Shown piece after piece: positions 4,981 to 38,235 of a stretch of 64,000 bases of DNA. Source of the stretch: Jeotgalicoccus saudimassiliensis. Its GTDB lineage: Bacteria; Bacillota; Bacilli; Staphylococcales; Salinicoccaceae. Location of the stretch: positions 682,001-746,000 of the forward strand of contig NZ_CCSE01000001.1 of assembly GCF_000756715.1 (NCBI RefSeq), written 5' to 3'. The notes below the pieces were generated by a model that worked only from the letters and a program-made list of their open reading frames with translations, searched no databases and had not been told where the DNA came from. Positions within the stretch are counted from its first letter, which is position 1. Each line of letters starts with the position of its first letter. The position numbers and the translations under genes were made by a program.

Positions 4981-5075
4981 GTTGATGAAACGTAAACATC
5001 AACCGCACATATATAGGTCGAAGCGGATATATCCCACCTATAGTGGCGTGTCTTTAAATAATAGGAGGTGTAAGT
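4981..5075 (+). promoter_or_regulatory. L21 leader RNA
   Basis: A roughly 95-nt untranslated leader between the promoter and rplU. It contains self-complementary blocks (GTTGATG...CATCAAC around 4980-5001, and the CCGCACATATATAGG / CACCTATAGTGGCG region). Position and sequence style match the L21 leader family of Firmicutes, proposed to mediate autoregulation by a ribosomal protein. The assignment rests on synteny and recognisable pieces, not on a covariance search. Confidence 0.72.
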
Positions 5076-9003: not shown

Positions 9004-10026
9004 ATGAAGTTGGAAGAATTTGATTTTCATCTGCCTGAAAATTTAATCGCGCAGACACCGTTAAAAGACCGTACAAGTTCACGGCTGCTTGCAGTTAATA
9101 AAGCGGCAGGCGAACTTTCGGATAAACACTTTTACGATGTTGCCGATTACTTTAACCCGGGCGACGTACTCGTGTTAAACGATACGAAAGTACTGCCGGC
9201 AAGATTGTTCGGTGTAAAAGAAGACACCGGCGCCAAAATTGAAATGCTCCTTTTAAAACCGATTGACGAAGGATACGAAGTGTTAATCCGTCCGTCAAAA
9301 AAAGTGAATATCGGCACGCGTGTCGTGTTCGGTGAAGGCAAGCTGACGGCAGAATGTACTGCGAAATTCGAAGAAGGCATTCATCATATGAAATTAATTT
9401 ATGACGGCATTCTGGAAAACGTTCTGGATGAGCTTGGTGAAATGCCGCTGCCGCCGTATATTAAAGAAAAACTTGATGATAAAGACCGATATCAGACCGT
9501 CTTTGCACGTGAATCGGGTTCAGCTGCAGCACCGACAGCGGGACTGCACTTTACTGAGGAACTGATGCAGGAAATTAAAAATAAAGGTGTGGAAATTGTA
9601 TACATTACGCTGCACGTCGGACTCGGAACATTCCGTCCTGTCGCTGCAGATACGATCGAAGACCATAAAATGCACAGCGAATTTTATACGATGACAGCTG
9701 ATGCGGCGAAAACGCTGAACGATAAAAAAGCAGCAGGGGGGAAAATTATCAGTGTCGGTACGACAAGTACGCGCACACTTGAAACAATTATTCACGACCA
9801 CGGAGAATTTAAAGAAGCATCCGGATTTACTGATATTTTTATTTATCCGGGATTCGAATACAAAGCAGTGGACGTTTTAATTACCAATTTCCACCTGCCT
9901 AAATCGTCACTGGTCATGCTGGTCAGCGCGTTCAGTTCACGTGAACACATTTTAAATGCATACGCACATGCGGTGGATTCGGAATACCGTTTCTTCTCGT
10001 TCGGCGATGCGATGATCTTACATTAA
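9004..10026 (+). CDS. queA: S-adenosylmethionine:tRNA ribosyltransferase-isomerase QueA
   Basis: Penultimate queuosine step: transfers the ribosyl part of SAM onto preQ1 at tRNA position 34 to make epoxyqueuosine. 340 aa, full length, with family blocks [38 protein letters not shown] and [11 protein letters not shown]. It has a strong AGGAGG ribosome site. In relatives tgt follows within a few bases. Here a 646-bp tandem hairpin array separates the two. Confidence 0.96.
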
Positions 10027-10094
10027 ATATTTTTGCGGTAAGTAGTGAAGTATGGGGGTTTTGCGTGTGGGCTGTGTTCGCGTTTGATGATGCT

Positions 10095-10740
10095 GGTGTA
10101 CTTCGAGACATTAACGAGGTGCACCGGCGGAGTTTGGTGTACTTCGCGGCATTAACGAGGTGCACCGGCGGGCTTAGGTGTACTTCGCAGACTTAACGAG
10201 GTGCACCGGCGGAGTTTGGTGTACTTCGCAGACTTAACGAGGTGCACCGGCTGGTTTTGGTGTACTTCGCAGACTTAACGAGGTACACCGGCTGGTTTTG
10301 GTGTACTTCGCAGACTTAACGAGGTTCACCGGCGGGCTTAGGTGTACTTCGCGACATTAACGAGGTGCACCGGCGGAGTTTGGTGTACTTCGCAGACTTA
10401 ACGAGGTGCACCGGCGGGCTTAGGTGTACTTCGCAGACTTAACGAGGTGCACCGGCGGGCTTAGGTGTACTTCGCAGACTTAACGAGGTGCACCGGCGGA
10501 GTTTGGTGTACTTCGCAGCATTAACGAGGTGCACCGGCGGAGTTTGGTGTACTTCGCAGACTTAACGAGGTGCACCGGCGGGCTTTGGTGTACTTCGCAG
10601 ACTTAACGAGGTGCACCGGCTGGCTTTGGTGTACTTCGCAGACTTAACGAGGTACCCCGGCTGGTTTTGGTGTACTTCGCAGACTTAACGAGGTGCACCG
10701 GCGGAGTTTGGTGTACTTCGCAGACTTGACGAGGTGCACC
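10095..10740 (+). repeat. Array A: sixteen tandem hairpins with exact 41-bp period
   Basis: Units start at 10095 and recur every 41 bp without drift, the last hairpin ending at 10740. Each unit has an 11-nt arm GGTGTACTTCG, a 9-nt loop (mostly CAGACTTAA), an 11-nt arm CGAGGTGCACC and a 10-nt linker. The linker comes in several shuffled versions (GGCGGAGTTT, GGCGGGCTTA, GGCTGGTTTT, GGCTGGCTTT). As plus-strand RNA the arms pair over all 11 positions, using two G-U pairs. On the minus strand those become mismatches. No T-run follows any unit. The stretch 10027-10094 holds nothing I recognise. The array ends 75 bp before tgt. Shuffled linkers suggest a copy-number-variable repeat. Confidence 0.95.
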
Positions 10741-10773
10741 AAGCCATCCACACGGCAGACTCATTACAATTAA

Positions 10774-11961
<1,188 letters not shown>

Positions 11962-28302: not shown

Positions 28303-28503
28303 AATAGAAATTCCTGAAGAGTTCGTGATGTGTTGACTTATATTTTGACCTAACACCTTTTTTATCGGGAGCCTAATTGGTTTTCCCTCGAAAAACAAGC
28401 CTATGTACGCAGTAGGACGTTTGGAGTTGGAAACAGGGCACCCACCTGCAAATAGCAGGCCAAAATAATCAACTATAACACACGGCTTACGTTGGGTATT
28501 TCG
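28303..28503 (+). ncRNA. ssrS: 6S RNA
   Basis: Regulator that binds the housekeeping RNA polymerase holoenzyme by mimicking an open promoter. Recognised from blocks shared with Bacillales 6S RNA: ATTCCTGAAGAGTTCGTGAT near the 5' end, TTTTGACCTAACACCTTTTT, the GGGAGCCTAATTGG...AAACAAGCC hairpin, GGAAACAGGGC, CACCTGC...GCAGG, and CTTACGTTGGGTATTT at the 3' end. The ends pair to form the closing stem. Exact termini are estimated. A terminator follows immediately. Confidence 0.9.
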
Positions 28504-28596: not shown

Positions 28597-28841
28597 GCGT
28601 TTATCATGATCCGAGCGGTGTTCTTTGTGAGGGTTGGGCGTTTATCATGCCAGAGAGATGTGTTCATTGTCACAGTAGGACGTTTACTGTGCCAGAGAGG
28701 TGTGTTCTTTGTCACAGTAGGGCGTTTATCGTGCCAGTGAGCGTAGTTCTTTGTCACAGTAGTGCGTTTACCGTGCCAGTGAGCGTTGCTCTTTGTCACA
28801 GTAAGGTGTATATCGTGACAGTGAAATTCGCTCATTGGCAC
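28597..28841 (+). repeat. Array B: about six tandem imperfect hairpins, 41-42-bp period
   Basis: Units align on GCGTTTA-like anchors at 28597, 28638, 28680, 28722, 28764 and 28806. From the second unit on, each has a 27-nt imperfect hairpin, at 28647-28673, 28689-28715, 28731-28757, 28773-28799 and 28815-28841. The arms are of type GTGCCAGTGAGC and GTTCTTTGTCAC, paired with one or two mismatches and G-U pairs. Several differences between units keep pairing (GTTC to GCTC, T-T to A-T). The first unit is degenerate, and 28537-28596 holds a further decayed copy with a small GTGAG/CTCAC hairpin. It lies between 6S RNA and the convergent rarA. Confidence 0.85.
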
Positions 28842-28873
28842 AGCAGCGCTCAAAGAACCTCCAAAACGTAAAT

Positions 28874-30730: not shown

Positions 30731-30776
30731 AAACCCGTCCGCCGGACTGCCAAAAAGCAATCCGGCGGACGGGTTT
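30731..30776. terminator. Large bidirectional terminator between cymR and the UbiB-like gene
   Basis: Perfect 16-bp stem (30731-30746 with 30761-30776) with a further 3-bp TGC/GCA pairing inside the loop. T-rich sequence follows on the plus side and TTTT on the minus side. Confidence 0.88.
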
Positions 30777-30815
30777 ATGTTTATGTTTATGTTTATGTTT
30801 ATGTTTATGTTTATG
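30774..30815 (+). repeat. TTTATG hexanucleotide microsatellite, seven copies
   Basis: Seven perfect copies of TTTATG start in the terminator stem and end 8 bp before the stop of the convergent UbiB-like gene. Perfect short repeats of this kind change length by slippage. Confidence 0.95.
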
Positions 30816-30822
30816 TCTGAAA

Positions 30823-37770: not shown

Positions 37771-37822
37771 GTTTGGGGTTGGAGCGTTTTGTATGTGGAG
37801 ATGTACGGGAAGTGGTGGATTG

Positions 37823-38171
37823 ACAACGGTGGCGTGCCGTTGTGTACCGAGAGGGCTGGAATGACAACGGCGAACGCCCGTTGTAAACCGGGAGGGCTGG
37901 AATGACAACGGTGATTCCCCGTTGTGAACTATGGGTGCTGGATTGACAACGGCGACTGCCCGTTGTGAACCGAGAGTGCTGGAATGACAACGGTGATTCC
38001 CCGTTGTGAACTATGGGTGCTGGATTGACAACGGCGACTGCCCGTTGTGAACCGAGAGTGCTGGAATGACAACGGTGATTCCCCGTTGTGAACCGGGAGG
38101 GCTGGAATGACAACAGTGATCCCCCGTTGTGAACCAGGAGTGTTGGATTGACAACGGCGAACGCCCGTTGT
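37823..38171. repeat. Array C: nine tandem hairpins with exact 41-bp period
   Basis: ACAACGG, a 7-nt loop and CCGTTGT, then a 20-nt linker, repeated at 37823, 37864, 37905, 37946, 37987, 38028, 38069, 38110 and 38151. All arms are perfectly complementary except one A-C mismatch in the eighth copy. Loops fall in two classes, TGATTCC-like and CGAACGC/CGACTGC-like. They alternate in copies 3-7, where an 82-bp two-unit block is duplicated. Linkers also alternate (GAACCGAGAGTGCTGGAATG versus GAACTATGGGTGCTGGATTG). It lies between converging genes. The stretch 38172-38235 is C/A-rich and holds nothing I recognise. Confidence 0.95.
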
Positions 38172-38235
38172 CAATCAATCCACCCAATCCACCCAAACTT
38201 ACTAACTCCAACTTCAACCCACTCCCAAACTCACC

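Follow-up and report, generated by a model that had tools for sequence, protein, structure and literature searches.

The queA–tgt locus

The window analysed here, a stretch of 64,000 nucleotides from the 2.19-Mb genome of Jeotgalicoccus saudimassiliensis (G000, C1:682001–746000), contains an array of hairpins between the genes queA and tgt. The features of the locus, in window coordinates, are as follows.

9004–10026, + strand: queA, the gene upstream of the array; an ORF of 340 amino acids with a match in all relatives
10021–10027, + strand: left copy of CATTAAA, a possible target-site duplication, at the queA stop codon (junction compared with the empty site of G004)
10028–10094: left flank of the insert, G/T-rich and without a terminator-like site
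10095–10740, + strand: hairpin array, 16 units of 41 bp (TRF and unit table)
10741–10796: right flank of the insert, without a + strand promoter-like site
10797–10803, + strand: right copy of CATTAAA, just 5′ of the tgt ribosome-binding site (junction comparison)
10816–11961, + strand: tgt, the gene downstream of the array, with an ATG start (the ORF list has a GTG upstream at 10807)

The 16-hairpin array described in the initial annotation is real. TRF reports a period of 41 with 15.8 copies and 0% indels at 10094–10740, and a unit-by-unit readout from 10095 to 10740 gives exactly 16 hairpins (15 × 41 + 31 bp), the final one being without a linker. Each unit is an 11-bp imperfect palindrome, composed of the arm GGTGTACTTCG, a 9-nt loop, the arm CGAGGTGCACC and a 10-nt linker. 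All 16 units carry the same 5′ arm, and the 176 arm pairs on the + strand comprise 145 Watson–Crick pairs, 29 G.T pairs and two mismatches. With wobble pairs allowed, the unit hairpin is equalled by none of 400 unit shuffles. Five types of linker occur, in mixed order, in keeping with the shuffling that had been described. A coding repeat is rejected, because 41 is not a multiple of 3, and so is a CRISPR array, since the whole unit is repeated, including loop and linker, rather than a constant repeat with unique spacers.

The two genes are normally neighbours that are interrupted here, as had been stated: they are adjacent in nearly all of 80 named genomes, with gaps of 0–176 bp (mostly below 60), and in 6 of 8 congeners as well. 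The exceptions among the 80 are the Jeotgalicoccus array itself (L009) and a 264-bp gap (L029) that stems from a truncated queA match. The tgt protein is 97–98% identical to those of Jeotgalicoccus nanhaiensis and one other Jeotgalicoccus, and its ATG at 10816 lies 75 bp beyond the array end. A consensus scan from the end of queA to tgt detected neither a promoter-like site on the + strand nor a terminator-like site, in agreement with the earlier remark that tgt has no apparent promoter, and a read-through transcript would therefore carry 16 stem-loops.

As RNA, the queA–tgt gap folds far better on the + strand (z of −12.8) than on the − strand (z of −2.9), because the two mismatches between the arms of the consensus unit form G.T pairs on the + strand. 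The orthologous array in the congener G005 likewise folds better on its sense strand. These properties, together with the lack of a detected promoter or terminator, are what would be expected if the stem-loops acted in the transcript, stabilizing upstream mRNA, stalling exonucleases or lowering downstream expression, with tgt uncoupled from queA. Set against this are the absence of any Rfam family matching the queA–tgt array and the properties of the arrays elsewhere, described below.

A dispersed class of palindrome arrays

The unit found between queA and tgt recurs as arrays at five further genomic sites, in either orientation, and the window holds two more arrays of the same kind with unrelated units.

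28613–28843: second array of the class, period 42, between convergent genes
37811–38178: third array of the class, period 41, between convergent genes, with orthologues in G003, G004 and G007

The queA–tgt array thus belongs to a class of non-coding palindrome arrays that is dispersed through the genomes of Jeotgalicoccus and its relatives; with the same unit at six genome places and the class at dozens of loci, the supposed tie to queA or tgt is not supported. In total, 22 arrays were found in 464 kb sampled from G000. Five of the sampled stretches had been picked around known copies of the queA–tgt unit, and the density was taken from the unselected stretches, where nine arrays per 364 kb correspond to about 54 per genome. 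The density is higher in the sister genome G004 (400 kb, partly picked for orthology), and the estimate from sampled stretches is about 50–100 arrays per genome. The class spans one family (f1) and one genome of a second family of the same order (f2), and no array above threshold was found in 519 kb around tgt from 75 other Bacilli genomes. Searches of open-licence papers, which are weak evidence of absence, returned no description of these arrays.

A compilation of 90 non-coding arrays from Jeotgalicoccus and related genera comprises 51 unit families at 66% cyclic identity; coding-looking arrays were dropped from it, except for two of odd period (30 and 48) that still look coding. The periods are 41 (56 arrays), 42 (7), 50 (1), 51 (14), 52 (4), 61 (3) and 81 (1, probably a doubled unit), with four others, so that 63 arrays fall at 41–42, 19 at 50–52 and three at 61. 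The odd periods are 30, 36, 37 and 48, of which 36 comes from another family. The 37-bp repeat, at L164 6726–6813 (G002), adjoins two 41-bp arrays and is the sole non-coding exception to the 41/51/61 rule within the genus. A lag spectrum computed from k-mers over all intergenic DNA, independent of TRF, has lags of 41 and 82 in Jeotgalicoccus, 51 and 41 in G010, and 61, 52 and 51 in G033. The steps of 10 bp correspond to 4, 5 and 6 helical turns at about 10.2–10.3 bp per turn, from which we infer that the quantised periods reflect helical phasing.

No k-mer is common to the unit families beyond the level of shuffles, and the candidate core motifs CAATGAGC and GACAATG are not in excess over shuffles. 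A single sequence-specific binder is therefore unlikely. A 10-bp harmonic in base composition, of the type seen in gyrase and nucleosome sites, is at most weak across many tests.

With gene pairs called by a simple ORF caller, the 77 array-bearing pairs comprise 48 convergent, 27 co-directional and two divergent ones. Convergent pairs thus make up 62% of those with an array, as against 12% of the others (292/2518), giving an odds ratio of 12.6 and a p value of 8e-25, which is optimistic because sites common to several species were counted repeatedly. Within Jeotgalicoccus, arrays occupy 34/160 convergent, 19/1001 co-directional and 1/165 divergent gaps. Random scatter through the genome had been named in the initial annotation as an outcome that would refute its reading; the scatter is found, at dozens of loci, but the randomness is not, most arrays lying in convergent gaps.

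This placement bears on the proposal of a function in RNA. Many arrays start directly past the terminator-like stem-loop of the left gene, as read by eye, and so lie beyond it between convergent genes. Among 24 co-directional arrays, only 11 fold better on the sense strand, which argues against a general RNA role, and the copy of the queA–tgt unit in L130 (10126) is antisense within a co-directional gap. We consider it unlikely that the class acts through its transcripts; at queA–tgt alone, where neither promoter nor terminator was found between the genes, an effect of the array on tgt mRNA is possible.

Several observations concern the array-bearing gaps themselves. The 45 bp flanking convergent Jeotgalicoccus arrays contain about 64–68% G+T and 11–12% C, and the G/T richness runs in the read-through direction from both sides. 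A 51-bp array at L186 4878–5114 (G010) opens with a palindrome that itself resembles a terminator, with stem-loop and T run, and arrays may accordingly grow out of terminators. The 42-bp array of the window follows a 6S RNA gene at 28308–28502 on the + strand (Rfam RF00013, 88 bits); the corresponding gap in seven congeners holds different arrays or none.

Evolution at orthologous sites

Three orthologous sets were compared: queA–tgt (G000, G005 and G007), 37811 (G000, G003, G004 and G007) and 635732 (G000, G003 and G004). At all three loci the 41-bp period is kept, with a unit identity in the aligned register of 49–80%. In each set a single dyad axis comes out best among 41, and double compensatory changes number two at queA–tgt, three at 37811 and seven at 635732. 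Sites are mostly common to several species, with diverged units, and the copy number at a given site can be zero, one, two or many units, depending on the species. At queA–tgt, the variability in copy number that had been anticipated is seen between species, with 0 units in G004, G001 and G003, about 6–8 in G005 and G007, and 16 in G000.

Degenerate arrays in G004 (period 41) and G010 (period 51) separate the parts of the unit. Identity between units is 0.70–1.00 in the arms, 0.43–0.52 in the loops and 0.31–0.39 in the linkers, and the lengths of the parts are exactly constant. Such conserved half-sites, inverted and held at a fixed spacing while the sequence between them varies, form the pattern expected of phased DNA sites.

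The strongest rival account, and a serious one, is mutational. The hairpin-opening nuclease SbcCD introduces double-strand breaks at intervals of 10 bp (PMC6265447). Palindromes extruded as hairpins or cruciforms could be cut by this nuclease and repaired with tandem duplications, its steps of about 10 bp setting the length of the duplication, and arrays without any cellular function would persist only in harmless gaps. The 10-bp interval matches the steps between the periods, single-palindrome and two-unit forms occur at sites where sister species carry long arrays, and an insert does least harm in convergent gaps. That arms stay alike while loops and linkers drift to near-random identity is not, however, a prediction of copying alone. 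The dyad axis is also kept with compensatory changes, although template switching from arm to arm could do that as well. The gene sbcD is present in 47/47 genomes searched, with and without arrays, so its presence alone does not discriminate. On balance we regard a purely mutational origin as possible but somewhat improbable.

The queA–tgt array also bears on how arrays arise. Direct repeats of 7 bp flank the insert (CATTAAA in G000, TACTAAA in G005), each matching the end of queA in its own lineage, and the empty site in G004 has a single copy of the 7-bp sequence. In the queA–tgt tree, G000 groups with G004, G005 with G007 and G001 with G003, and only G000, G005 and G007 have the array. This pattern, seen at one site, points to separate insertions that each duplicated their target. 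In register, G000 and G005 units agree at 26/41 positions, and there may thus instead have been one shared ancestral insertion, followed by losses.

A MITE-like element, brought in by a trans-acting transposase that duplicates the target and expanded afterwards, would account for the direct repeats, the empty site and the dispersal of the queA–tgt unit to six places. The right copy of the repeat has a mismatch in G007, however, and no other clean empty site was found. Array flanks lack general terminal inverted repeats, own pairs matching no better than cross pairs (p of 0.68); a partial terminal inverted repeat at the G005 queA–tgt array was dismissed as not representative of arrays elsewhere. 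A Y1_Tnp/RAYT match is absent from G000, and the sharing of most sites between species, with units already diverged, also speaks against mobility. We consider such an element very unlikely as the source of the class. A phage or plasmid origin, which likewise found no match in phage and plasmid records, was rejected.

Known repeat classes and a possible role in the DNA

In kind and placement, the arrays resemble the REP/BIME elements of Escherichia coli, being short imperfect palindromes in many copies, intergenic and regularly spaced, with mixed linkers. REP/BIME elements lie at gene 3′ ends, between convergent or co-directional genes and seldom between divergent ones (PMC3733652); the arrays, too, are 3′ of genes and avoid divergent promoters (2/77 pairs). 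On other defining features they do not qualify as REP elements, however. One or a few families with a GTAG or CGTC tag would be expected, whereas the 51 families and the k-mer comparison reveal many unrelated units and no common motif. Unlike REP/BIME, the arrays are purely head-to-tail, with up to 16 units, and their period is fixed at whole helical turns. A REP system with a RAYT was rejected, the cognate transposase being absent: PF01797 (Y1_Tnp) has no match in G000 and matches in one of nine Jeotgalicoccus genomes, G006, where eight partial Y1 transposase matches were seen (L118–L121), several of them at contig ends.

The STAR elements of Staphylococcus aureus and S. lugdunensis combine a 14-bp motif with 40–44 bp spacing and locus-specific spacers that expand and contract (PMC3532100). 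They share with the arrays the order Staphylococcales, an intergenic location and a variable copy number. Membership of the STAR family was nevertheless rejected, the motif TNTGTTGNGGCCC having 0 matches in 1,388,108 bases of Jeotgalicoccus and in 0/90 units. The array periods of 41–42, 50–52 and 61 also differ from that of STAR (about 54–58), for which no palindromic unit is reported (PMC3532100).

Plasmid iteron and partition-site arrays have sites at whole-turn spacing, with conserved half-sites and free spacers. The arrays described here have the same whole-turn spacing and conserved half-sites with a free spacer; unlike plasmid arrays, they occupy dozens of chromosomal loci, have no motif in common across arrays and have no known cognate protein. 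To our knowledge, no binder of the arrays has been described. In this bacterium and its relatives, repeat lengths that are almost always 41, 51 or 61 bp, one turn apart, point to a little-known structural element of the DNA more than to a device regulating tgt.

The account that we tentatively favour, while rating it slightly below even, is that of a DNA-level element in which helix-phased inverted half-sites manage supercoiling or chromosome structure where transcription converges. Each unit would provide two inverted half-sites, and spacings of 41–42, 50–52 or 61 bp, equal to 4, 5 or 6 turns of B-DNA, would place all palindromes of an array on the same face of the helix. The arrays would act as double-stranded DNA, forming cruciforms or offering phased sites to a protein or topoisomerase, and might serve at converging transcription in the manner of gyrase-binding BIMEs. 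In E. coli, gyrase binds and cuts BIMEs, its sites are enriched in BIME-2, and the flanks of its motif are helically periodic (PMC6379681). The queA–tgt copy would be a later insertion of an array into the operon, with read-through to tgt tolerated. The observations behind this account are the clustering of periods, the convergent placement, the conserved dyad axis with compensatory changes, the conservation of the arms and the lack of a sense-strand preference. Against it, the unit families lack a common motif, the composition harmonic is weak, convergent placement is also expected of a neutral insert that avoids promoters and operons, period differences of 10 bp could also be produced by a nuclease working in 10-bp steps, and the + strand of queA–tgt folds much better as RNA.

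A broader version, which we put forward as a speculation with a rather low chance of being correct, is that helically phased arrays mark convergent 3′ ends throughout the chromosome in this branch of the Staphylococcales. Selection would act on geometry, meaning the palindrome and the whole-turn period, and leave the sequence free, and the arrays would be read by a factor recognizing DNA shape or cruciforms instead of sequence, for example in order to absorb or resolve supercoils between converging transcription units. Dispersed non-coding repeats of bacteria are usually defined by their sequence; these arrays vary freely in sequence and have lengths quantised by one turn of DNA, in dozens of unrelated unit families from several genera, and compensatory change keeps their palindromes. 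The testable question is whether the arrays are phased DNA sites or cruciforms at converging units, or the footprint of a hairpin nuclease with 10-bp steps, and either answer would inform the long-open role of intergenic palindrome arrays in bacteria.

Two further elements were noted in the window. A ribosomal protein L21 leader (Rfam RF00559) lies at 4991–5063 on the + strand, and at 30773–30816 the hexamer GTTTAT forms a perfect repeat of 7.3 copies, a candidate slippage site.
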